Positions 1 to 18,454 of a stretch of 22,706 bases of DNA are shown here, piece after piece. The stretch is from a virus, in IMG/VR virus record IMGVR_UViG_3300021406_000047, positions 1 through 22,706 of that record; one strand, written 5' to 3'. Every line of letters begins with the position of its first letter. Positions within the stretch are counted from its first letter, which is position 1. A program made the position numbers and the translations under genes. The notes under the pieces are model-generated. The model saw only the letters and a program-made list of their open reading frames with translations. It was not told the DNA's origin and did no database searches.

Positions 1-160
1 TTGGCACCGCTCATGTCGGCATCGCGCATGTTGGCACCGCGCATGTTGGCATCGCGCATGTTGGCATCGCTCATGTCGGCACCGCGCATGTTGGCACCGC
101 GCATGTTGGCACCGCTCATGTTGGCACCGCTCATGTCGGCATAACTCATGTTGGCACCGC
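1..160. repeat. Tandem 15-bp direct repeats encoding pentapeptides
   Basis: Ten full 15-bp units (consensus TTGGCACCGCGCATG on the + strand) and a partial eleventh run without spacers from the window start. Units differ at only a few positions (T/C at 2, C/T at 7, G/T at 11), apart from one more diverged unit near 136-150. Every unit keeps the reading frame of the pentapeptide protein. Near identity at the DNA level, including synonymous positions, suggests recent expansion by slippage or unequal recombination. Confidence 0.93.
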
Positions 161-269
161 TTTTAATTGCTTCCTCAACCGCCTCTTTGAAGGTTGGCTT
201 TTCGGACTCATAGATCACTGCACCACTTAACCAGTTTAGTATTTTGATTGTTGCTTGTACTTTTTTCAT
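1..269 (-). CDS. Pentapeptide-repeat protein, C-terminus cut by window edge
   Basis: The leftward frame opens with ATG at 269, 8 nt after a good AAGGAG Shine-Dalgarno, and stays open to position 1, so the C-terminus lies outside the window. About 38 residues come first (MKKVQATIKILNWLSGAVIY, then a KEAVEEAIKSG segment). They are followed by consecutive pentapeptides of the form A(N/D)M(S/R)(G/D/Y). Such repeats fold as a right-handed quadrilateral beta helix. Family members include gyrase-protecting DNA mimics, but most phage examples have no known role. The repeats use Met at the central position where Leu is usual. It is the last visible gene of a three-gene leftward cluster. The family call is secure; the function is unknown. 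Confidence 0.9.
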   Translation of the reverse strand, partial: MKKVQATIKILNWLSGAVIYESEKPTFKEAVEEAIKSGANMSYADMSGANMSGANMRGANMRGADMSDANMRDANMRGANMRDADMSGA

Positions 270-279
270 GTCTTACTCC

Positions 280-552
280 TTAGTTTAAATCCTTCCTATT
301 AGCGAATATATCAGTATTTGTCCTGACATGCAAGTTATCTACTTCCGAGCCGTAAAGCTTTTTATAGTGCGCAACGTAGCTGGCAGGCGTTGATTTGTTC
401 TTCCAGTTAAGATATACCCCTTTGACTGTAGAGCAGAACCTAAGCTGCTCAGGCGACGGCTCAAGCTCATTATTGAGGACAAGCCAAATCTGCTCCGCTT
501 TCTCTGCTGATATAACTTTTCCTAGTCCATTGTTTAGGATGATGAAAGCCAT
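280..552 (-). CDS. Hypothetical protein, 90 aa
   Basis: A leftward ORF starting at ATG 552, 3 nt after the stop of the preceding 71-aa gene, so it is probably translationally coupled. Its stop (280-282) lies 10 nt before the start of the pentapeptide gene. The product is a soluble-looking mixed alpha/beta protein with no membrane segment. The N-terminal half has a KAEQIWLVLNNELEPSPEQ stretch and the C-terminal half is basic (WKNKS...HYKKLYG). I do not recognise a family. The gene is supported by its position in a tight three-gene leftward operon. Confidence 0.7.
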   Translation of the reverse strand: MAFIILNNGLGKVISAEKAEQIWLVLNNELEPSPEQLRFCSTVKGVYLNWKNKSTPASYVAHYKKLYGSEVDNLHVRTNTDIFANRKDLN

Positions 553-555
553 AGT

Positions 556-771
556 CTACTCTTCAACCTCTGCTTCATTATCAAGCATACTTGAGATAAT
601 CCCAGCTGCATCAGCCCTAGTTAGCTTATTCACGTCTGGTGGTGGTAACTTCCTACGCTTGTATAGTGTAAGTATAAGTGATCGCTGTTTCCACGATGCG
701 CGCTCATTGGCTCTCCTTGGAACATAGATCGGTTTTAGTGGTTTATGATTGAACTCTGGAACTAAAGGCAT
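556..771 (-). CDS. Hypothetical basic protein, 71 aa
   Basis: The first gene of the leftward three-gene cluster. The ATG at 771 is preceded by a purine-rich ribosome-binding region (AGGAAGGAAGG). The protein begins with a proline- and lysine-rich segment, followed by a strongly basic stretch (VPRRANERASWKQRS...YKRRK) and an acidic C-terminal helix ending NEAEVEE. The basic middle could bind nucleic acid, but no motif proves it. No family recognised. Confidence 0.68.
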   Translation of the reverse strand: MPLVPEFNHKPLKPIYVPRRANERASWKQRSLILTLYKRRKLPPPDVNKLTRADAAGIISSMLDNEAEVEE

Positions 772-898
772 AGGGCCTTCCTTCCTACTACTTAGGGTTG
801 ATGAGATTATCTACAAGCCGGTATCCTACAGTAACAATTAGTGGACTAATTCCCCGTTTACAGTGCGCTTCTGCTTCCAATTACTGTGGCTGGTGCCG

Positions 899-974
899 TA
901 TATATAAGCTTTGTAAGAATCGGGTGAATTACTCATTTAGACAGGGCACCCGCTAACCTGAAAGCTTATATATA
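899..974. repeat. 14-bp perfect inverted repeat
   Basis: TATATATAAGCTTT at 899-912 is exactly complementary to AAAGCTTATATATA at 961-974, with 48 nt between. A second pair, GGTGCC (892-897) and GGCACC (945-950), interleaves with it, so the two stems cannot both form as a simple hairpin. Possible roles are a protein-binding site, an alternating RNA structure, or part of a small RNA ending at the 1032-1052 terminator. Confidence 0.8.
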
Positions 975-983
975 TTGTTTCGC

Positions 984-1012
984 TTGTAAATGTATGTGCC
1001 AGTGTCTATAAT
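984..1012 (+). promoter_or_regulatory. Sigma70-type promoter (TTGTAA, 17 nt, TATAAT)
   Basis: A -35 box TTGTAA at 984-989 and a perfect -10 box TATAAT at 1007-1012 are separated by 17 nt. The predicted start is near 1019. The transcript would meet the 1032-1052 terminator hairpin within about 15 nt, so the promoter is either attenuated or read through under some condition. Confidence 0.65.
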
Positions 1013-1031
1013 TAAGAGCGAGTAAGACCAG

Positions 1032-1052
1032 CACCCCGCAAGGGGTGTTTTT
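1032..1052 (+). terminator. Intrinsic terminator or attenuator
   Basis: A perfect 6-bp stem CACCCC/GGGGTG with a GCAA tetraloop (1032-1047) is followed directly by five T residues. It lies just downstream of the 984-1012 promoter and upstream of the RHH operon. It could end a small RNA or control read-through into the operon. Confidence 0.8.
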
Positions 1053-1148
1053 CTATACTGTCACTGACGACATATTTGTTCTTGAGTAAGACCAAATAGT
1101 CTCTCTAAGTTAAGCACTAGCCGTGTTAGAAAGCAATGTATATCATCT

Positions 1149-1157
1149 TTCATGACA
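1149..1157. promoter_or_regulatory. Putative RHH operator half-site 1 (TTCATGACA)
   Basis: The sequence TCATGACA lies just upstream of the -10 element of the RHH gene and matches the palindromic site inside the 2259-2287 promoter. A partner TCATGATA lies on the other side of the -10 box (1174-1181). The arrangement suggests autoregulation. No binding data are available. Confidence 0.4.
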
Positions 1158-1159
1158 GG

Positions 1160-1168
1160 TGGTACAAT
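1160..1168 (+). promoter_or_regulatory. Extended -10 promoter TGgTACAAT, probable leaderless start
   Basis: TG at 1160-1161, one base, then TACAAT at 1163-1168 forms an extended -10 box. No good -35 box is seen. The ATG of the RHH gene begins 8 nt after the box, close to where transcription should start, and there is no convincing ribosome-binding site, so the mRNA is probably leaderless or nearly so. The same arrangement occurs before the HNH gene at 14937. Confidence 0.55.
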
Positions 1169-1172
1169 AGAA

Positions 1173-1181
1173 GTCATGATA
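1173..1181. promoter_or_regulatory. Putative RHH operator half-site 2 (GTCATGATA)
   Basis: The site overlaps the start codon of the RHH gene and flanks the -10 box together with TTCATGACA at 1149-1157. Bound protein here would cover both promoter and start codon. Confidence 0.4.
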
Positions 1182-1316
1182 GAACCCAAACCCCGAATCA
1201 AACTAGAAGTACGACTAAAAGCAGAGGAAAAAGCTCACTTGTGGGCTGTAGCTAAGAAGCGCGGTGTTAAGGTGTCGCAGTTAGTTAGAGACCTTATTGC
1301 GGGTGTGGATAAGTAA
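1176..1316 (+). CDS. Ribbon-helix-helix (Arc/MetJ-type) transcriptional regulator, 46 aa
   Basis: A 46-residue ORF (MIEPKPRIKLEVRLKAEEKA at the N-terminus). RIKLEVRL (about residues 7-14) has the alternating pattern of the DNA-contacting beta strand. Helix A covers roughly 16-30, then a KRGVKV turn, and helix B 33-44 has the SQLVRDLI pattern. These proteins work as dimers whose paired strands insert into the major groove. The stop is 2 nt before the YopX-like gene, so they share an operon. Near-palindromic TCATGAYA motifs around its own promoter and inside the 2259-2287 promoter are candidate operators. An antitoxin role is less likely because no toxin-sized partner follows. Confidence 0.8.
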   Translation: MIEPKPRIKLEVRLKAEEKAHLWAVAKKRGVKVSQLVRDLIAGVDK

Positions 1317-1318
1317 TA

Positions 1319-1702
1319 ATGCGTGAACTGAAATTCAGAGCGTGGGCGCTGCGCCGTGATAACACGATGGGCTGGATATATTCTGAAGACGAGTCTAACC
1401 TTAGTCAGTACTTTGATTGGACTGAGGATTTTGAGCAAGAGCACTATACCAGCCGAAAAGATAAAAAAGGCAAAAAAATATACGAAGGCGATCTAGTACG
1501 TTGGGATGACGCTACTTGGCAGATAGTATTTGATGGAGCGCAAGGTTGGATGTTGCAAGCTATCCACTCCGATAACTACGATCCCAATGATATGCCTAAC
1601 TTGTATATGCAATCAGTAATAGATAATCCTATTTTTACTAGAGTTGAAATCATCGGCAACACCCATGAGCATGGTTATCTCTTGGAGAAAGCCAATTCCT
1701 AA
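1319..1702 (+). CDS. YopX-like phage protein, 127 aa
   Basis: It begins MRELKFRAWALRRDNTMGWI and contains KDKKGKKIYEGDLVRW (around residues 50-65), both hallmarks of the YopX family, and ends with a typical EIIGNTHEH segment. YopX proteins are common in phages and prophages; their molecular function is not established. Length fits the family (about 120-140 aa). It follows the RHH gene by 2 nt, and its last 38 nt overlap the most likely start of the HNH gene in another frame. Confidence 0.9.
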   Translation: MRELKFRAWALRRDNTMGWIYSEDESNLSQYFDWTEDFEQEHYTSRKDKKGKKIYEGDLVRWDDATWQIVFDGAQGWMLQAIHSDNYDPNDMPNLYMQSVIDNPIFTRVEIIGNTHEHGYLLEKANS

Positions 1703-2249
1703 AGGAGTCAAAGGTTTCCAGATTGGACATGAGACTAGCTTAGAGACACGCTGCAAAATCGCCGACGCACTCCGTAATCAGGTCAGTTTTAATTGCGATA
1801 ACTGTGGAGCCACAAGCAGTGATAAGCCTAGCTCCTACACCCGTAAGAAGCACCATTTCTGTTCCACGGCATGCTACTCACAGTTCAGAGCTACGAAGAT
1901 GGAACCGCACGAGCAAAATAGCTGGCGCGGTGGCGTGACACGATATGAGGCGCACAAGCGTTGGGTAGCTAAGAATCCTAAACGCATGGCACATCTCAAG
2001 GCCAGACGCTATGCACGCGAGCGCGGAGCGGAAGGGAACCACACTTTAGAAGAATGGGAAGAACTCAAGGCACGTCTAAACAACTTATGTGCAAACTGTG
2101 GCGAAGCCAAACCCCTGACTAAAGATCACATCATGCCATTGTCGGAAGGCGGAAGCGACTACATATCGAACATCCAGCCACTATGCCGAAACTGCAATAG
2201 TCGTAAGTGGAAATTCATCCATGATAATCCGGAATTACTAAAACCATAA
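1665..2249 (+). CDS. HNH endonuclease with N-terminal zinc finger
   Basis: The C-terminal part has CANCG, then DHIMPLSEGG, then NIQPLCRNCNSRK, the complete Cys4 HNH nuclease pattern with the DH pair for metal and water activation. An extra CDNCG...HFCSTAC zinc finger lies near residues 44-70. A short segment with FQIGHETSLETRCKIADALR before it resembles NUMOD3-type DNA-binding modules of homing endonucleases. The start is uncertain: ATG 1665 or 1671 lies inside the end of the YopX gene, and an AAAGGAG motif at 1701-1707 lies downstream of both. Likely a selfish or packaging-linked nuclease; free-standing HNH genes in phages take either role. Confidence 0.87.
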   Translation: MSMVISWRKPIPKGVKGFQIGHETSLETRCKIADALRNQVSFNCDNCGATSSDKPSSYTRKKHHFCSTACYSQFRATKMEPHEQNSWRGGVTRYEAHKRWVAKNPKRMAHLKARRYARERGAEGNHTLEEWEELKARLNNLCANCGEAKPLTKDHIMPLSEGGSDYISNIQPLCRNCNSRKWKFIHDNPELLKP

Positions 2250-2258
2250 ATAAAAGTC

Positions 2259-2287
2259 TTGACACTGTCATGACAATAGCCTAAACT
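2259..2287 (+). promoter_or_regulatory. Strong sigma70-type promoter with embedded operator
   Basis: Consensus -35 TTGACA (2259-2264), a 17-nt spacer and -10 TAAACT (2282-2287) predict a start near 2294. The perfect palindrome TGTCATGACA (2266-2275) sits in the spacer, the classical place for repression by steric exclusion. It matches the TCATGAYA sites around the RHH promoter. It would drive the structured RNA and probably the early operon beyond. Confidence 0.78.
2266..2275. promoter_or_regulatory. Palindromic operator candidate TGTCATGACA
   Basis: A perfect 10-bp palindrome between the -35 and -10 boxes of the promoter at 2259-2287. It shares TCATGACA with 1150-1157 and TCATGA with 1174-1179. 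The nearby RHH protein is the obvious candidate ligand, by inference. Confidence 0.5.
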
Positions 2288-2293
2288 AAGACC

Positions 2294-2898
2294 AGAATCG
2301 TTTATGGGCAATAGCTCGGACAACGGCTCGAAACTTAACAATTCGGCACTTCAGAAAACTAACGTAGAGCGCAGCAGCCCCGTCATCGCGGTGCCCACCC
2401 CCTCGGTGGCGGGATTCATGCGCTCTATACAAGTGGGTTGTACTTAGGTCTAGCTGCAATTATGACTAGGCGGCAATAATCCTTGCAAGTGAGCATACCT
2501 AGCGCTAGGCCTATGCTCAGCCCACTTACGATTGAGTGACTAAATCTAATAACAAGTTGACTCGAGGTAGATAGGATATAGGAAGCGACGCTTAGTTAGC
2601 TACGTACTTATGAAGACTATTCAGTGAAGGCAATAAACTGTTGCTGATGCACCCTTTCTTGTTATTAGAACCTTAGCTGCCAGTAGATCACAGAGAATAT
2701 ACTGCGATGATTGTATTCTGTGGAATCTCATGCAATGAGAGTTTGCTTGTACAGGTAAACAAAGTCGCATCTCACCATAATGAGTCTGCTTACTGGCAGC
2801 TAAGGTCACTCAATCATTAACTCAACTAGCGGTTCCCGCCAACGGGCGAGCCAATCTGCAGTACTAGGCTGGTTGGCGGAGATTGCTAGTTGAGTTAA
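2294..2898 (+). ncRNA. Large structured RNA candidate (about 600 nt)
   Basis: This stretch has no convincing ORF but many perfect, mutually compatible helices: 2365-2373/2419-2427 (9 bp, enclosing CCCG/CGGG and CCACC/GGTGG stems); 2431-2437/2521-2527 (7 bp); 2490-2497/2512-2519 (8 bp, capped by CCTA/TAGG); 2530-2540/2805-2815 (11 bp), which closes a multibranch domain holding 2546-2556/2658-2668 (11 bp) and 2671-2685/2791-2805 (15 bp); inner hairpins 2689-2694/2717-2722 and 2726-2731/2735-2740; and a final 2817-2830/2885-2898 (14 bp) stem with further pairing inside. It follows a strong promoter directly. Size, phage context and multi-domain folding recall the ornate RNAs ROOL and GOLLD, but I cannot assign it to either. 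The last stem abuts the ribosome-binding site of the next gene, so it may also be a very long 5' leader. No terminator is seen at its 3' end. Confidence 0.75.
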
Positions 2899-2908
2899 AG
2901 GAGACAGA

Positions 2909-3019
2909 ATGACAGATGATTTTATAGACCAAGAAGACTACGACCGCCAGGAAGCGGCCTACGATAACTACATAGACAACCAGATTGAACGCCAGCTCGA
3001 AGAACAAGCCGGGCTTTAA
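2909..3019 (+). CDS. Acidic micro-protein, 36 aa
   Basis: ATG 2909 is preceded by AAAGGAG with ideal spacing. The peptide MTDDFIDQEDYDRQEAAYDN and its continuation are rich in Asp, Glu, Tyr and Gln and probably form a single helix. It is the first coding unit after the structured RNA, and the 14-bp stem ending at 2898 runs into its ribosome-binding site. No family assigned. Confidence 0.7.
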   Translation: MTDDFIDQEDYDRQEAAYDNYIDNQIERQLEEQAGL

Positions 3020-3049
3020 TCACTACAAAAACCAAAAAAGGAAAAACAA

Positions 3050-3178
3050 ATGCGAGTAGTACAAATACGTGAGAAACAGCCACCGGCTGAACCCTCACTT
3101 TTCAGAGAGACAATATCATTTTTCGCAGCCGCCGGATTGCTTGTAGCTTGCTACATAGTGTTCGCGGTTGCTTTCTAA
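3050..3178 (+). CDS. Single-pass membrane micro-protein, 42 aa
   Basis: The start at 3050 follows an AAAAGGAAAAACAA leader. The first 20 residues are charged and proline-containing; residues about 22-42 form one hydrophobic segment (TISFFAAAGLLVACYIVFAV), so the topology is probably N-in with the C-terminus at the membrane. It lies 14 nt before the RecT gene. Function unknown. Confidence 0.65.
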   Translation: MRVVQIREKQPPAEPSLFRETISFFAAAGLLVACYIVFAVAF

Positions 3179-3192
3179 ATACAGGAGAGACT

Positions 3193-3918
3193 ATGGAAGA
3201 CACAGCAAAGGAATTTCCCGAAGAAGCAAGAGAGTACGCTGAAGCAAAGAGCCTAGAAGTGCAACAGCCAGTCGCAAAGCCTTTTACAATTCGCGACACG
3301 GACGCTACTAGCTTTCTTGACCCGAATTTGTACATACAGCTCAAGGCATTAGCACGAGATTTTATCAAATCACGCGCTATACCCGCTGTATGGGAAACTT
3401 CCGAGCAGGTGCTTGTAGGACTGCAAACGGGTGCTGAAATGGGTATGAAGCCTATGGAAGCAATGAACTCGCTTTATCCCGTGAATGGTGCAATAAACGT
3501 GTGGGGTAAGGCTACGACCCGACGGCTTAAAGAGCATGGTTGGAAAATCGAATACTCTAACGAGAGTCAGGAATCCTGCACCGCTACTGTCAGTAAAGGC
3601 AACGAATCATACACTGAAACGTATACCTTTAAGGAAGCTCAGGAATCAGGTTACACAACGCAGTTCAATAAATTCACCAAAGTCACTGAATTAAAAGTCG
3701 GCTGGAAGCCTGGAATGAACCGTAAAAAGAAATTACGCTACGGTGTCCTTTCTCTGATAATTTCAACCGAGATACCAGAAGTATTAGGGTCAGCTATGGG
3801 AATTGTGGAAGTATCAGATGACTACGATCTGGGAACAAACAAAGACCCTGCCGTACTCGACGCAGGTGACAAAGTAAAACAAATCGCGGGAGCTTACAAA
3901 AATGCTAGCCAAGATTAG
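3193..3918 (+). CDS. recT: RecT-family single-strand annealing protein, 241 aa
   Basis: The start at ATG 3193 is chosen over upstream ATGs because AGGAGAG lies 5 nt before it. LVGLQTGAEMGMKPMEAMNS (about residues 75-94) and VNGAINVWGKA (97-107) match the conserved core of RecT annealases, which coat single strands made by the partner exonuclease and anneal them to homologous DNA. A basic NRKKKLRYG segment near residue 178 probably contacts DNA. Its 3' end overlaps the exonuclease gene by 17 nt, the usual annealase-nuclease pairing. Used for phage recombination and possibly concatemer formation. Confidence 0.9.
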   Translation: MEDTAKEFPEEAREYAEAKSLEVQQPVAKPFTIRDTDATSFLDPNLYIQLKALARDFIKSRAIPAVWETSEQVLVGLQTGAEMGMKPMEAMNSLYPVNGAINVWGKATTRRLKEHGWKIEYSNESQESCTATVSKGNESYTETYTFKEAQESGYTTQFNKFTKVTELKVGWKPGMNRKKKLRYGVLSLIISTEIPEVLGSAMGIVEVSDDYDLGTNKDPAVLDAGDKVKQIAGAYKNASQD

Positions 3919-4537
3919 TGAACACGAACAAGGTACGCCCGAGTGGAAAAAAGACCGTATAGGCTACGCCACCGCAAGTAACGTCGCGCTTATCATGGCG
4001 AAAGGGGCAGGCGCTACGCGCACAAACTACATGGTCAAGATGATGTGCGAAATGCTATCAGGCGAGCCGGCAGTAGGCTTCAAGTCAAAGTATATGCAGG
4101 CTGGCAACGACAATGAGCCGATTGCACGCGAGATTTACCAGGAAATTACGGGTAGAGAGGTTGTGCAGCGAGGCTTTGCCTACATCGAAGCCGAGAAGCT
4201 TGGCGCGTCTGTGGATGGTGACGTTGAAGCAGACGGCTTGCTAGAGATTAAAAACGTCATCCCTGCTGAGCAAGTGCGGCTACTCACCACTGGCAAGATC
4301 AAGGACGCCTACATAAAACAAATGCAAACGCAAATGTACGTCCGTGAGAAAGCGTGGTGTGACTTCACTAGCGTCAGCTTAGGCGATGAAGAAAATGGCG
4401 AGCTGCCCGACAAATATAAAGTTAAGATCATTCGAGTAATGCGCGATGACTCCATGATACAAACTATCAGGCACGAGGTGGCCTTTTTCCACCACGATTT
4501 ACAAGAAATGATTAAGAAGTTAGAGGGAGTAAAGTAG
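3902..4537 (+). CDS. YqaJ/lambda-Exo-like 5'-3' exonuclease, 211 aa
   Basis: The protein opens with the family signature QGTPEWKKDRIGYATASN (about 10-27), followed by AGNDNEPIAREIYQEITG. The catalytic region GASVDGDVEADGLLEIKNV supplies D105 and the ExK pair E115/K117 that bind metal in PD-(D/E)XK nucleases, and IKQMQTQMYV matches the conserved Gln motif. The enzyme resects double-strand ends to give 3' tails for the RecT protein encoded just upstream. The start codon lies inside recT, and the stop overlaps the next GTG start by 1 nt. Confidence 0.92.
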   Translation: MLAKISEHEQGTPEWKKDRIGYATASNVALIMAKGAGATRTNYMVKMMCEMLSGEPAVGFKSKYMQAGNDNEPIAREIYQEITGREVVQRGFAYIEAEKLGASVDGDVEADGLLEIKNVIPAEQVRLLTTGKIKDAYIKQMQTQMYVREKAWCDFTSVSLGDEENGELPDKYKVKIIRVMRDDSMIQTIRHEVAFFHHDLQEMIKKLEGVK

Positions 4538-5559
4538 TGTCAGACAATCAACTACAGGTAATTTTAGCAGAGCAGAATGTCCCTAAAGAGAATGCACAGT
4601 TATTGCTTACGGCTTTCGGTGCGCCATTTGAAGAGGCTGGAAAAATCCTAGCCGAATACCAGACCATTGTTGTTACTGAAGAAGACCAATTTGATTTAAT
4701 GGCTGAGGCTCGTAACAAGCGCCTATCACTCAAAAACATTCGTGTTGACGTAGAGAAAAAGCGCAAAGAACTGAAAGAGGACAGTCTGCGTACTGGTCGG
4801 GCTATCGACAGCGTCGCTAAGTTTGTTAAAGAGATCATTGAGCCAGCTGAGAAATATCTGGAAACGCAAGAGAAGTTTGCAGAGATACGCCAAGCTGAGC
4901 GTGCTGCAAAGGTAAAAGCCGAGCGCATTGAAAAGCTTATGCAGTACACTAGCGACCTTTCGCTGTACAACATGGATGCAATCACCGACGAGCAGTTTAA
5001 TACCTTACTGGAATCTCTTGAGTATCAACACGAGATCGAGCTTGCTGAGCAAAAGCGTATCGAAGACGAGTATATTGCAAAAGAGAAAGCCGAAGCTGAA
5101 GAGCAAGAGCGTGTCCGTGCTGAAAATGCCAAACTCAAAAAGGAAGCTGAAGAGCGCGAGAAAAAAGCCGCGCAAGAGAAAGCCGCAGCCGATAAATTAC
5201 TTGCAGAAGAACGTGCGAAGGCAGAGGCCGCACAAAAAGCCAAAGACGAAGAGCTACGTGTCGAACGTGAGAAAGCTGCTCAGATCGAGCGCGAGCGCGC
5301 CGCAGAACGTGAGGCCGCAGAACGTGAGCGAGCACAGCGTGAAGCTGAAGAAGCCAGAGCAAAAGCCGCTGAAGAGGAAAAACAGCGCCAAGCATTGCTA
5401 GCACCGGACAAAGAGAAACTACTCGCTCTAGCTGTCCTTATTGACCAGATCGAGCTACCGGCACTCTCTAGCAAATCAGCACAAGAGGTACTAAATCGGA
5501 CCGAGGAATTTCTAGGCAAAGTCTCAACTTACATTCGAGGCAATGTAAAAGGTCTGTAA
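4537..5559 (+). CDS. Long coiled-coil protein in the recombination operon, 340 aa
   Basis: GTG start at 4537 with AGAGGGAG just upstream; it overlaps the exonuclease stop by 1 nt and the next gene by 1 nt. Residues 1-165 are a helical domain (including LSLKNIRVDVEKKRKEL). Residues about 165-290 are an almost unbroken charged helix of Glu, Lys, Arg and Ala, a long single helix or coiled coil. The last 50 residues form a small hydrophobic domain (LALAVLIDQIELPAL). Similar coiled-coil proteins sit beside RecT/exonuclease pairs in many phages and are often mislabelled TolA-like or DUF1351. A structural or scaffolding role in the recombination complex is a guess. The low-complexity helix creates several shadow ORFs on both strands. 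Confidence 0.8.
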   Translation: MSDNQLQVILAEQNVPKENAQLLLTAFGAPFEEAGKILAEYQTIVVTEEDQFDLMAEARNKRLSLKNIRVDVEKKRKELKEDSLRTGRAIDSVAKFVKEIIEPAEKYLETQEKFAEIRQAERAAKVKAERIEKLMQYTSDLSLYNMDAITDEQFNTLLESLEYQHEIELAEQKRIEDEYIAKEKAEAEEQERVRAENAKLKKEAEEREKKAAQEKAAADKLLAEERAKAEAAQKAKDEELRVEREKAAQIERERAAEREAAERERAQREAEEARAKAAEEEKQRQALLAPDKEKLLALAVLIDQIELPALSSKSAQEVLNRTEEFLGKVSTYIRGNVKGL

Positions 5560-5972
5560 TGAAGTTCAATACTGCCATTCAATCCGAGGCAGAGGCATCA
5601 GCAAACTATCTGATTGACCTGATCGACAAGAAGCAAATCGTTGAAGTAAAAAAGGTAAGCCCGAAACGGTCACTGAACCAGAACGCATACGTTCACTTGC
5701 TTATTGCCGCTTTTGGCCAGCACTTTGGGTACACTTCTGAGGAATCCAAACAGCTCTACAAGATGATTAGCCCAGACGTGTATAAATACACCAAGAACGG
5801 CCGCACGTTCTGGCGCAGTTCGGCAGACTTAACCAAGGAGGAAATGGCAAAGACAATAGATGCGTTCATGAAGAAATCGGCTGAAGCGGGATATCCGTTG
5901 CCGCTTGCGACTAACCAAGAGTGGATAAGGCAAATCGAGAATTTAATCGAGCAAAGTAAATACTACTTATAA
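5559..5972 (+). CDS. NinB/Orf-like recombination protein, 137 aa
   Basis: Starts with ATG in a TAATG overlap with the coiled-coil gene. The RSLNQNAYVHLLI motif (about 37-49) corresponds to the conserved RT/SxxQN core of NinB (lambda Orf) proteins. The C-terminal LTKEEMAKTIDAFMKKSAEAG segment matches the family's typical end. NinB proteins bind single-stranded DNA and SSB and help load annealases, which fits the position after recT and the exonuclease. The family call rests on motif resemblance by eye. Confidence 0.72.
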   Translation: MKFNTAIQSEAEASANYLIDLIDKKQIVEVKKVSPKRSLNQNAYVHLLIAAFGQHFGYTSEESKQLYKMISPDVYKYTKNGRTFWRSSADLTKEEMAKTIDAFMKKSAEAGYPLPLATNQEWIRQIENLIEQSKYYL

Positions 5973-5981
5973 GGGGTAAGA

Positions 5982-6503
5982 ATGTTAAAACTAGGACTAC
6001 ACAAGAAAAGACAGATCGTTGACCTTAAGCCCGATGACGCCACAATGCAGGGAATATTCGACGCAATCGACCGATACAATACGGCGCTTAGCAGTAATGC
6101 CATACTCCGGCTTGTACAGATTGACAGTTCTGAGCTGGACGAATGTTTACAGTTACTCGTCAACAAGAAATGGATTGAGGTTGCCTACGAGAAAACAGGA
6201 CTGGACGGCATTACACGCCCCTACTACCGCGTTTCCGAGAGCTACAACCTGCTCGATGCCAAGAGCAAAATAAGCAAATTCATCACTGATGTAATACGCA
6301 AAGCTAAGCCGGTTGTCGATAACGGCAAACATTATAGTGTGCGCGTCCCGAGACGCCGAGAGTTTAATATGGTGTTCGACACTCGCCAGCACGCCCGAGA
6401 CTACCGTAACTTACTAAAAGAAAGCCGCATGCACCTGAGCTCAGATGTATGGGAAGAGGTTTTTGAAGAGGGTCTACAAGTAAAAGAGAAGAGGATATCG
6501 TGA
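5982..6503 (+). CDS. Hypothetical protein with possible winged-helix N-terminus, 173 aa
   Basis: ATG 5982 follows AAGGGGTAAGA. Residues about 18-75 (ATMQGIFDAIDRYNTALSSN, then a helix SSELDECLQLLVNKKWIEV and a PYYRVSE wing) look like a winged-helix domain. The C-terminal half is strongly basic (SVRVPRRREF, ARDYRNLLKESR), compatible with nucleic-acid binding. Its TGA stop overlaps the GTG start of the KH-domain gene by 4 nt. It could be a replication or regulatory protein; no family is recognised with confidence. Confidence 0.7.
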   Translation: MLKLGLHKKRQIVDLKPDDATMQGIFDAIDRYNTALSSNAILRLVQIDSSELDECLQLLVNKKWIEVAYEKTGLDGITRPYYRVSESYNLLDAKSKISKFITDVIRKAKPVVDNGKHYSVRVPRRREFNMVFDTRQHARDYRNLLKESRMHLSSDVWEEVFEEGLQVKEKRIS

Positions 6504-11301: not shown

Positions 11302-11598
11302 ATGAGTAAACATATTCCTCTTGGCGAAAATGTCCTTATTAAGGCTAGAGATTCACGCCAAAGCAAGTATTTTAACGCCCCAAAGTCAGAGTTTGACCAG
11401 ACGCAAACAGTCGGCACACTGATTAGCTTGGGAGCAGATGTACCCGATAACTATAAAAATATAATTGGTAAGATTGTCTTTTTCCCGTCATTCCACGAGG
11501 TGAGAGCCACCGCAGACCCGGACGCACCAGAGGTATTTGTTAATTATAAACTTATCGCAGGATATGAAGAGGAGAGCAATGACTCAATTAGCGACTAA
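11302..11598 (+). CDS. groES: GroES-like co-chaperonin, 98 aa
   Basis: ATG 11302 has AAAGGAAAC upstream. The layout follows GroES: an N-terminal IPLGENVLIKARD strand (cf. IRPLHDRVIVK), a 15-residue flexible stretch where the GroEL-binding mobile loop sits (about 22-36), VGTLISLG, then GKIVFFPSF (cf. GDIVIFN) and a C-terminal YKLIAGYEE strand. Length (98) matches GroES (about 97). It should cap the GroEL-like ring encoded three genes downstream. The mobile loop sequence is unlike that of host GroES, as expected if it is tuned to the phage GroEL. Confidence 0.8.
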   Translation: MSKHIPLGENVLIKARDSRQSKYFNAPKSEFDQTQTVGTLISLGADVPDNYKNIIGKIVFFPSFHEVRATADPDAPEVFVNYKLIAGYEEESNDSISD

Positions 11599-11857: not shown

Positions 11858-12012
11858 GTAACGCATTTGATGAATACAAGCAAAAAACTTTGAATTTATT
11901 GCAGATGATGGCTGATGAGAATTATGAAAACTTAGACGGTGAAAGTTATGTTATCAATAAAAAGCTTCGTCTAAAACTAATGAGCATAATGGATAAGGTA
12001 AAAACTTTATGA
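11854..12012 (+). CDS. Hypothetical helical micro-protein, 52 aa
   Basis: Overlaps the upstream stop and the downstream groEL start with ATGA junctions on both sides, strong support for a real gene. The sequence (MSNAFDEYKQKTLNLLQMMA...) is a two-helix protein with a basic C-terminal helix (NKKLRLKLMSIMDKVK). Unknown function. Confidence 0.65.
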   Translation: MSNAFDEYKQKTLNLLQMMADENYENLDGESYVINKKLRLKLMSIMDKVKTL

Positions 12013-13667
12013 ACAATAAATTTGCACGAAAAGTTGTTTACGGTAAAGAATACGAAGAGGCCAAGCTCAGAGGCTCGAACCTATCTAAATTAGTAGCTAA
12101 ATCCGCTTATGGCGTCGGTGCCGGCAATGTGATGATCGAGCGTAATTTTGGCGCTCCTCTTACATCCAGGGATGGTGTGAGTAATCTCGAACAATTGCAT
12201 GTGGCTGAACCTGTTGAGAACATGGTTATACAATCAATTGTACAATCATCTCAAAGGACTAATCAGCATGCTGGAGATGGGACAACTGCAACAGCCATAT
12301 TAGCCTCTGACCTGTATGAACAGGGGGTTAAAGATATTCACGAAACAGGCAGAAGCCCAATACAGGTAGCTAACAAGATACTTGAAACATCCCGTGAGGT
12401 CTATAAGTTCATCGACAGTAAGAAAGTCAAGGCCACTAAAAAAGACCTTAAGAATATTGCACGTATCTCCTCTCACGACACGGCACTCGGTGATATGGTT
12501 TCATTTATCTTTGAGAAGTTTGACGGCGATGGAGGTGTTGTGGTTGGCACCCATGATGGTGACGATACGACTATGTCAATGGAGGAGGGCTTTTACTTCA
12601 AGAAAGGCTTTGCTGACCCGAAACTAATATCTCATCCAGGCCTAAGGGAGTCATATCTTACAAATGTCCCCGTACTCGTTATTAGTAAGGTTTTGAAAAC
12701 ATCCAATGACATGATAGCCATTTTTGAGAAGATAGGCGAATATGCAGCCAACCATGGTCGTATTCCTTTAGACTTCTTGATGATTGCCGATATTGAGGGG
12801 GTTGCTTTAGAGGGCTTAAAAGAAAACCCTCGCAATCTTCTTATTCCTACCGTAGTAACACCTTTAGATCATGGTGCACGTAAAGATGCTTTCTTTCAAG
12901 ATGTAGCCACCTATACGGGTGGAAAAGTCATCAGTAATAATGATTTTGATGATTCATACTTTGGGAATGCAGACGAAGTTATCGCATCTGGACTGACGAC
13001 TAATATTATTTATGGCACCCTCGATCTTAAAAAGTTAGAAGAACTGCATGATAAAGGAAAGATATCTGATGCAGACTTCGAGGCTAAAAAGAAAAGACTC
13101 GAGGGAATAACATTTTTGTTAAATAAACTTGATGAACAGATTGAAAAGACTACTGACTCTTACGATCTAGAGTTCCTAAATGAGCGTAAAAACCGCTTAC
13201 AAGGTAAGATAGCCACCATATCAGTTGGCGGTGAAACGGAACAGATTAGAATAGAAAAGAAGTTAAGGGTTGATGATGCTTCAAACGCGGTACGTTCTGC
13301 GAAGTTATATGGAATTGTTCCTGGAGAAGGCGAACCGCTCCTGTGGGCGGCAAGCGTGGTAAACAATGCTGACCGATACGGTAATCTATTCCTCTACCTA
13401 CTGGAAAACTGCGGTATTGATGACCCCGACAGCTACGCCTATAAGCTAGTCGATGAATGTAAGTTTGGCGAGGGGTACGATATATCGGGCGATTCCCTAC
13501 CCGAGGGTGCAGATAGAAAGACGGTTATAAACCTGCGTGAGCACGGTATTGTTGACCCTGTACAGGTAGTGCTAGAGACCGTCCGAAATGCGGCGGCTGT
13601 GGCTGCGCTACTCGTAACCAGTACGACCGGCATGTACTACGAAAACCGCGACATCAAACAGGACTAA
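12009..13667 (+). CDS. groEL: GroEL-like (group I) chaperonin, 552 aa
   Basis: Forms an ATP-driven ring that folds proteins. Aligns along its length with GroEL: NFGAPLTSRDGVSNL (D55), HAGDGTTATAIL (D90, the ATP site), the apical domain with LMIADIEGVALEGL and ARKDAFFQDVATYTGGKVIS, then YDLEFLNERKNRLQGKIATISVGG, RVDDASNAVRSA (D423, equivalent to catalytic D398) and DPVQVVLETVRNAAAVAALL. Differences: the GPKGRNV loop reads GVGAGNV, VAGGGVAL reads VPGEGEPLL, about 25 extra residues sit near 336-365, and the GGM-rich tail is missing. Such divergence is usual in phage chaperonins. It follows the 52-aa gene through an ATGA overlap. Likely client: virion proteins. Confidence 0.95.
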   Translation: MNNKFARKVVYGKEYEEAKLRGSNLSKLVAKSAYGVGAGNVMIERNFGAPLTSRDGVSNLEQLHVAEPVENMVIQSIVQSSQRTNQHAGDGTTATAILASDLYEQGVKDIHETGRSPIQVANKILETSREVYKFIDSKKVKATKKDLKNIARISSHDTALGDMVSFIFEKFDGDGGVVVGTHDGDDTTMSMEEGFYFKKGFADPKLISHPGLRESYLTNVPVLVISKVLKTSNDMIAIFEKIGEYAANHGRIPLDFLMIADIEGVALEGLKENPRNLLIPTVVTPLDHGARKDAFFQDVATYTGGKVISNNDFDDSYFGNADEVIASGLTTNIIYGTLDLKKLEELHDKGKISDADFEAKKKRLEGITFLLNKLDEQIEKTTDSYDLEFLNERKNRLQGKIATISVGGETEQIRIEKKLRVDDASNAVRSAKLYGIVPGEGEPLLWAASVVNNADRYGNLFLYLLENCGIDDPDSYAYKLVDECKFGEGYDISGDSLPEGADRKTVINLREHGIVDPVQVVLETVRNAAAVAALLVTSTTGMYYENRDIKQD

Positions 13668-13939: not shown

Positions 13940-14165
13940 AAACGGTAAGTTTGTAGTCGGCAAGATACCGAAGTCCGTTCGACATCCTGGCTATAAGCAA
14001 GAGAATAACGACATGCAGCGTATCACCCATTCTGCAGAGTTAGTGCAGCCGTTTAACCCTGATGGCACTCGGAATACGGCGTACAGCACCATCTACCACC
14101 AGGCGGCCATTAACCAGGGTGTCATTGACGAAGACCCATTACCAGATTTTCAGAGGTTTGAATAA
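13911..14165 (+). CDS. Hypothetical protein, 84 aa
   Basis: The start is chosen at ATG 13911 (GGAGAGGAAAAACCCT upstream). Sequence MIRLTGGVDKNGKFVVGKIP then SVRHPGYKQENN is rich in Gly, Asn and Pro with no membrane segment. It is the last gene of the chaperonin operon; its end overlaps the convergent 71-aa gene by 16 nt. Not recognised. Confidence 0.7.
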   Translation: MIRLTGGVDKNGKFVVGKIPKSVRHPGYKQENNDMQRITHSAELVQPFNPDGTRNTAYSTIYHQAAINQGVIDEDPLPDFQRFE

Positions 14166-14365
14166 AAGTTGAGATTCTCAGTCAGCGTAATAACCTCTTC
14201 TAAAAGAGTGTCCTTTTTAGATAGTAAAAGTTTGTACTCTCTAGAAAGTATATCGTACTGCATATTCAATTCTTTCAGACTGTTAGCGCCCATATCCAGG
14301 AGTCTTTCCTGTTGTGCAAGAGCCTCCGCAAGTTCAGAGGCTCTGTTTTTATCCTGGGCGTTCAT
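14150..14365 (-). CDS. Coiled-coil protein, 71 aa
   Basis: ATG 14365 lies 3 nt after the stop of the 159-aa gene. It is almost entirely helical (ELAEALAQQERLLDMGANSL, KELNMQYDILSREYKLLLSK), heptad-like with Leu at spaced positions. The end overlaps the rightward gene by 16 nt. Unknown function. Confidence 0.7.
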   Translation of the reverse strand: MNAQDKNRASELAEALAQQERLLDMGANSLKELNMQYDILSREYKLLLSKKDTLLEEVITLTENLNFYSNL

Positions 14366-18096: not shown

Positions 18097-18454
18097 TCAA
18101 TCCGTATTTCTGGAATCCGTCATCAAACTTACTGAGATCGAGCGACTTAGCGAACTCAGTCTGAGGCGTGTAATCAATCTCGGGAACTTCCTCCATGAAC
18201 TCTTTAAGCGAATCCTCGTTGATCTTGGCATCGTCTTCGCCTTTGTCGTCCTTGTCCTTTGTATCGTCGGTTGTGTCATCACCCTTATCATCGGTGTTTG
18301 AGTTATCCTGCGAATCATCGCCATCTGAGTTGTCGTCTGAGTCATCCTCAAGCGGTTTGCCAAATTCGTCTAAAGGCATATCGTTTTGGTGATTACTATC
18401 GTACTTTCCTACCAACTCCTGCACTTCGGGGTCGTCTAGAATGTCTTCATACAT
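18089..18454 (-). CDS. Scaffolding protein, N-terminal acidic part
   Basis: ATG 18454 follows AAAAAGGAGTATTTAAC, a very good ribosome-binding site. The 121-aa frame starts MYEDILDDPEVQELVGKYDS, has an extreme Asp-rich stretch (about 38-80), then a helix SLKEFMEEVPEIDYTPQTEF and ends after TGA at 18091-18089. The next coding frame continues seamlessly if one base is skipped within the 8-nt window 18096-18089, giving a product of about 327 aa. The position between portal and capsid and the acidic-coil composition are typical of scaffolding proteins. Either a sequence/assembly error, a real split gene or programmed +1 frameshifting. Confidence 0.72.
   Translation of the reverse strand: MYEDILDDPEVQELVGKYDSNHQNDMPLDEFGKPLEDDSDDNSDGDDSQDNSNTDDKGDDTTDDTKDKDDKGEDDAKINEDSLKEFMEEVPEIDYTPQTEFAKSLDLSKFDDGFQKYGLTC

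Follow-up and report, generated by a model that had tools for sequence, protein, structure and literature searches.

The region considered here, positions 2294-2898, belongs to the plus strand of the viral record IMGVR_UViG_3300021406_000047 (22.7 kb), the whole of which, 22,706 nucleotides in length, was analysed and is referred to as the window. It is preceded on the same strand by genes for a ribbon-helix-helix-like protein, YopX and an HNH endonuclease, the last two being intact ORFs, and is followed by an early operon comprising a 36-aa ORF and genes for a RecT-like annealing protein and a YqaJ-type exonuclease. Between these two groups of genes, folding calculations predict an RNA of about 605 nt organized in four domains (Table 1).

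Table 1. Features of the locus, with positions in the window.
Feature	Position	Strand	Evidence
Ribbon-helix-helix-like small protein (NikA/RelB-like)	1176..1316	+	PF21983, E 2.5e-4 (sub-threshold); NF046040, E 0.0018
Free-standing HNH endonuclease, 179 aa, just upstream of promoter	1710..2249	+	PF01844, E 4.3e-12
Sigma-70-type promoter-like site, TTGACA-17-TAAACT	2259..2287	+	Consensus scan, 10/12; predicted start ~2294
Palindrome TGTCATGACA between promoter hexamers	2266..2275	.	Motif scan
RNA 5' segment, weakly structured	2294..2363	+	MFE, centroid, helix list
47-codon ORF (MGNSSDNGSKLNN...) over domain I	2304..2447	+	Codon score 0.119, ambiguous (overlap of true and false frames)
Domain I, hairpin	2364..2428	+	Helices 2364-2373/2419-2428 and 2379-2388/2404-2413; probability 0.99
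Domain II, arm	2431..2527	+	Helices 2431-2440/2518-2527 and 2445-2454/2504-2513 (10 bp)
Domain III, multibranch	2530..2815	+	Closing helix 2530-2540/2805-2815; probabilities 0.90-0.99
Domain IV, 3' hairpin, 18 + 8 bp	2817..2898	+	Probability 0.98-0.995
Shine-Dalgarno AGGAG directly 3' of last hairpin	2899..2903	+	Sequence; unpaired probabilities 0.42-0.99
36-aa ORF, first gene of early operon	2909..3019	+	Codon score 0.689, strong
RecT-like single-strand annealing protein	3193..3918	+	PHROG 4171, E 2.4e-10
YqaJ-type exonuclease	3902..4537	+	PF09588, E 4.6e-18

A sister record in IMG/VR (IMGVR_UViG_3300050821_003202; 40,352 bases) matches the entire window at 99.99% and positions 1-4000 at 100%, so that the RNA region is identical in the two; its sequence is known from two near-identical assemblies, with perhaps one population behind both. 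The only match to the portal-like protein among 50,697 phage records is a TM7 phage from the dolphin mouth; this TM7 phage also shares 36% identity with the terminase of the present phage, which is 41% identical to a contig in a metagenome-assembled genome of ~0.9 Mb. The listed genomes of the phylum to which this assembly belongs are mostly 0.5-1.2 Mb, as is likewise the case for Patescibacteria. The portal and terminase matches, along with the small genomes of the matched phylum, make a Saccharibacteria-like bacterium the probable host. Several other features of the window were recorded. Tandem pentapeptide-type repeats with a 15-nt unit, 'ttggcaccgc(t/g)catg', occupy positions 1-160 and continue further at the end of the sister record. 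A phage-encoded GroEL-like chaperonin with an internal SHOCT-like segment is found at 12009-13667, and a 98-aa ORF upstream of it (11302-11598) invites a GroES-like reading, but matches no Pfam family. Relative to the sister record, a short indel at 18097-18103, probably an assembly error, splits an ORF of ~328 aa in two.

Base pairing within the region far exceeds chance expectation. The region contains four inverted repeats that are perfect over 11 bp or more (11-16 bp), against a mean of 0.023 in 300 dinucleotide-preserving shuffles, in agreement with a preliminary description of this DNA in which such long helices were held to be beyond chance. Every perfect helix listed in that description occurs at the coordinates it gave, and the repeat search lengthens the two inner helices that form the arms of domain III, from 11 to 12 bp (2545-2556/2658-2669) and from 15 to 16 bp (2670-2685/2791-2806). 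The associated claim that these helices nest without conflict holds for seven of the eight, which form with mean probabilities of 0.90-0.99, but not for 2490-2497/2512-2519; in the partition function this helix is a minor alternative with a probability of ~0, since it is displaced by 2445-2454/2504-2513, an arrangement better for domain II by ~9.5 kcal/mol. Domain II also holds a 12-nt palindrome, CCTAGCGCTAGG, at 2498-2509. The plus-strand ensemble is well defined, with a per-base confidence averaging 0.89, and G-U pairs account for 23 of its 205 pairs.

Stability of the fold depends on the strand. Folded as a whole, the plus strand of 2294-2898 reaches -238.9 kcal/mol (z = -9.36 with 300 shuffles, -9.2 with 20) and its complement -203.6 kcal/mol (z about -4.6 to -5.4). 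The resulting gap of -35.3 kcal/mol (z = -4.5) was attained by 0 of 300 shuffles, the most extreme of which gave -23.1. A functional structured RNA should have a fold that is stabler than chance and biased to one strand, and both properties are found here. Moreover, when the sister record and a relative with an 89% identical capsid were surveyed in 250-nt segments, no segment on either strand had a better z than the RNA region. As a DNA palindrome should have much the same stability on either strand, the simplest reading of the gap is that selection acts on the plus-strand RNA rather than on DNA palindromes. The asymmetry arises mostly from the 5' half of the region, the perfect 3' helices being nearly strand-neutral.

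These long perfect inverted repeats are also what might be expected of a DNA element with no RNA function, such as a replication origin, a target of recombination or protein binding, or what is left of a mobile element, and a TM7 phage offers a precedent of a kind in its early control region. There (MG269973, intergenic, 13947-14253), inverted repeats with TATTCTATATAGAATA are very strong and strand-symmetric (z -9.2 and -9.6), and look like an operator or other DNA-level palindromes. The region studied here differs from such an element in its strand gap, unmatched among the shuffles, and in its several nested domains in place of one palindrome. It also lacks iterons, with just two chance-like 13-nt direct repeats, which weakens the replication-origin reading in particular. 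We therefore consider a DNA element unlikely.

Coding potential was judged by codon scores trained on the large genes of the window itself, a scale on which true genes have their 5th percentile at 0.097 and false frames their 99th at 0.196. The preliminary description found no supportable ORF in the region. This is upheld for the minus strand, where the ORFs have negative scores, as non-coding frames do, but is less clear for the plus-strand ORF at 2304-2447, whose score (0.119) falls between the two limits. No recognisable Shine-Dalgarno sequence precedes this ORF, and it has no tblastn match among phages and no protein family match. Its stop codon falls within domain II, and its score lies just within the range of true genes, which together would suit an attenuator in which translation of a leader peptide, by the position of the ribosome, re-folds domains I and II. 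Such a device would have no terminator to attenuate, would depend on an ORF with neither a ribosome-binding site nor a homolog, and would leave domains III and IV unexplained; indeed, the ORF cannot account for the folding of 2450-2898. We regard this explanation as quite improbable. Strand-specific stability and the weak coding signal together lend good support to the original proposal of a multi-domain structured RNA of roughly 600 nt, and it is likely that such an RNA exists at 2294-2898.

Comparison with established RNA families, as called for in the preliminary description, yielded none to which this RNA could be assigned. Searches of Rfam (4227 families) returned no match at gathering score, and at E up to 10 only chance-level matches to five unrelated models (animal microRNA and similar); riboswitches and all other Rfam families were discarded on this basis. 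Group I and II introns were likewise rejected, there being no catalytic-core match at E up to 10 and no split gene seen. The HEARO or omega RNA of IscB-IsrB systems is similar in being a structured RNA that adjoins an HNH endonuclease gene; here, however, the RNA lies 3' of that gene, has a promoter-like site of its own and has no Rfam match, and no full IscB or IsrB protein adjoins it. Of the IscB model NF040563, the 179-aa HNH protein matches just the HNH portion, scoring 35 bits where the cut-off is 175, and a RuvC-like domain was not found in the protein.

Closer attention is due to ROOL and GOLLD, phage RNAs of unknown function that often occur near tRNA islands and form RNA cages (PMC12286853); the ROOL cage is a homo-octamer, and that of GOLLD comprises 14 chains (PMC12286853). 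ROOL resembles the present RNA in being phage-encoded, about 600 nt long (659 nt for ROOL env-120; PMC12286853) and elaborately folded into many helices with no protein gene, and GOLLD in being a large phage RNA with no known role. Membership in either family, to which the preliminary description had drawn a comparison, finds no support in direct runs of RF03087 (ROOL) and RF02032 (GOLLD) on the phage records, neither of which gave a match at E up to 10; the control genomes were likewise without a ROOL match, so that far relatives of ROOL may escape such a run. No tRNA or tmRNA was detected in the window, nor any tRNA at 20001-40000 of the sister record (ARAGORN), although a nearby tRNA island is a common trait of ROOL and not a strict requirement. 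GOLLD has many members longer than 800 nt (PMC12286853), whereas this RNA has 605, and, unlike ROOL, it is placed as the leader of an early recombination operon, is followed by no terminator and has no relatives that we could find. While size and phage setting are compatible with a divergent ROOL or GOLLD beyond the reach of the Rfam models, we consider this highly improbable; the RNA may still be functionally similar to them.

Relatives were sought at several levels. The preliminary description suggested looking for homologs upstream of recT in related phages; among ~80 related viral records of IMG/VR (relatives by RecT, exonuclease, capsid or terminase) only the sister record carries the RNA. 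In the phage closest by capsid (89%), late genes are shared, most of the early region differs and the RNA is absent; its sole strong fold lies inside a pentapeptide-like repeat gene. Searches of phages and plasmids by blastn recovered no homolog. When IMG/VR was scanned with two short patterns, matched exactly, and a pair of read-through translations, and the chance matches were re-examined by blastn, nhmmer and covariance models, the sister record alone was recovered. The same was true of covariance models of two sub-domains applied to 49 viral records, with the sister record as positive control; one of these models (R1), run on 295 genomes without a positive control, gave no match. No relative was found in 380 genomes of the likely host phylum, in a search that had no positive control, or in 393 of the likely host order (the two samples overlap), other than one match of 32 nt at 88% identity in the latter. 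This was rejected as chance: the matched stretch is part of a permease-like ORF that has an ABC ATPase as its neighbour, and its fold is no more stable than those of shuffles. Nor did the literature yield anything on large RNAs in phages of Saccharibacteria-type bacteria. A separate structured segment was encountered in a TM7-like phage (IMGVR_UViG_3300049571_000196, 3380-3880; z = -6.6, far stronger on the plus strand), which contains a perfect 17-bp hairpin and is flanked by a 70-aa ORF and by an HNH gene that precedes the terminase; Rfam, tRNA and blastn searches gave no match for this segment, and it does not resemble the RNA of the window.

Transcription of the RNA would begin at the promoter-like site in Table 1. 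The strong promoter of the preliminary description is borne out as a consensus match of 10/12, but such sites are not in excess locally, with 8 in 900-6000 against 6.4 expected. The palindrome TGTCATGACA lying between the promoter hexamers has a near copy, TTTCATGACA, with one mismatch, at 1148-1157, a short way ahead of the ribbon-helix-helix gene. The sister record, of 40 kb, contains 3 sites with at most one mismatch, against an estimated ~1.2 expected. From these sequences it is possible that the two sites form a shared operator of the RNA promoter and the ribbon-helix-helix gene, and that the ribbon-helix-helix-like protein is a regulator; that it controls the RNA promoter is a guess.

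On the downstream side, two points were overlooked in the earlier reading, namely the absence of a terminator and the position of the RNA as an operon leader. No intrinsic terminator-like site occurs on the plus strand from the RNA to 5681, and no plus-strand promoter-like site after 2298 in the scanned stretch, to 6000. Lack of a terminator, combined with a ribosome-binding site abutting the last hairpin, places the RNA, as read from the sequence, at least physically as the 5' leader of the early operon. This arrangement is the main argument for a serious rival to the explanation that we prefer, in which the RNA remains attached to the recT-exonuclease mRNA and regulates it in cis, one possibility being assistance to RNA polymerase in passing terminators, others an effect on mRNA stability or on translation of the 36-aa ORF. 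Cis-acting phage leaders provide a precedent. The put RNAs of phage HK022 and the EAR RNAs of Bacillus, which help RNA polymerase past terminators, are also structured RNAs between an early promoter and its operon. They are, however, about 65-130 nt long, and an RNA of 605 nt in four domains far surpasses the known leaders for antitermination or attenuation in size and complexity. In addition, AGGAG at 2899-2903 is largely open in the predicted fold, so that no switch that hides this site is apparent. Control in cis is a possibility to which we give substantial, but minority, weight.

The explanation that we tentatively prefer, at somewhat less than even odds, is an orphan structured RNA that is co-transcribed with the early operon, freed at its 3' hairpin and active in trans. 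The early recombination transcript would start from the promoter at 2259-2287 and open with this RNA. The long hairpin of domain IV, a candidate processing or stabilising element by its modelled structure, would serve as a site of double-strand cleavage and stabilisation. Cleavage would release the 5' part as a folded RNA in its own right and leave, as the 3' part, the recT-exonuclease mRNA capped by a hairpin. In what is the weakest step, the freed RNA might act in trans, in a structural or protein-binding capacity, as is supposed for other large phage RNAs. Consistent with this proposal are the strand-specific stability and well-defined ensemble of the fold, its rank as the top folding region of the genome, its 23 G-U pairs, the lack of a convincing gene, the promoter-like site at the start of the RNA and the 18 + 8 bp hairpin before AGGAG; furthermore, four elaborate domains would seem to exceed the needs of known cis-regulators. 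Against it, a free RNA would require putative processing in view of the missing terminator, no homolog was found, the perfect helices on the 3' side differ little between strands, a possibly coding ORF overlies domain I, and the sequence comes from two near-identical assemblies. The choice between action in trans after processing and a cis leader is nearly even; the size of the RNA, its domain count and the length of its 3' hairpin incline us to the former.

Large structured RNAs known from phages are few, and for ROOL and GOLLD the function has yet to be settled. An RNA of 600 nt tied to an early recombination operon, in a phage whose host group has reduced genomes, could represent a new class. 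In its fullest form, which we find doubtful but conceivable, this would be the first of a class of large ornate RNAs distinct from ROOL, GOLLD and OLE, expressed early in infection by a phage of Saccharibacteria-type bacteria and acting either by itself or as an RNA particle; copies of the RNA could associate by pairing at the palindrome CCUAGCGCUAGG (2498-2509). If it is a new class, its clear genetic context (early operon, RecT, exonuclease and a possible small repressor), unlike that of ROOL and GOLLD, would make its role testable. The finding also suggests that such large RNAs can be orphans, missed by searches based on families.
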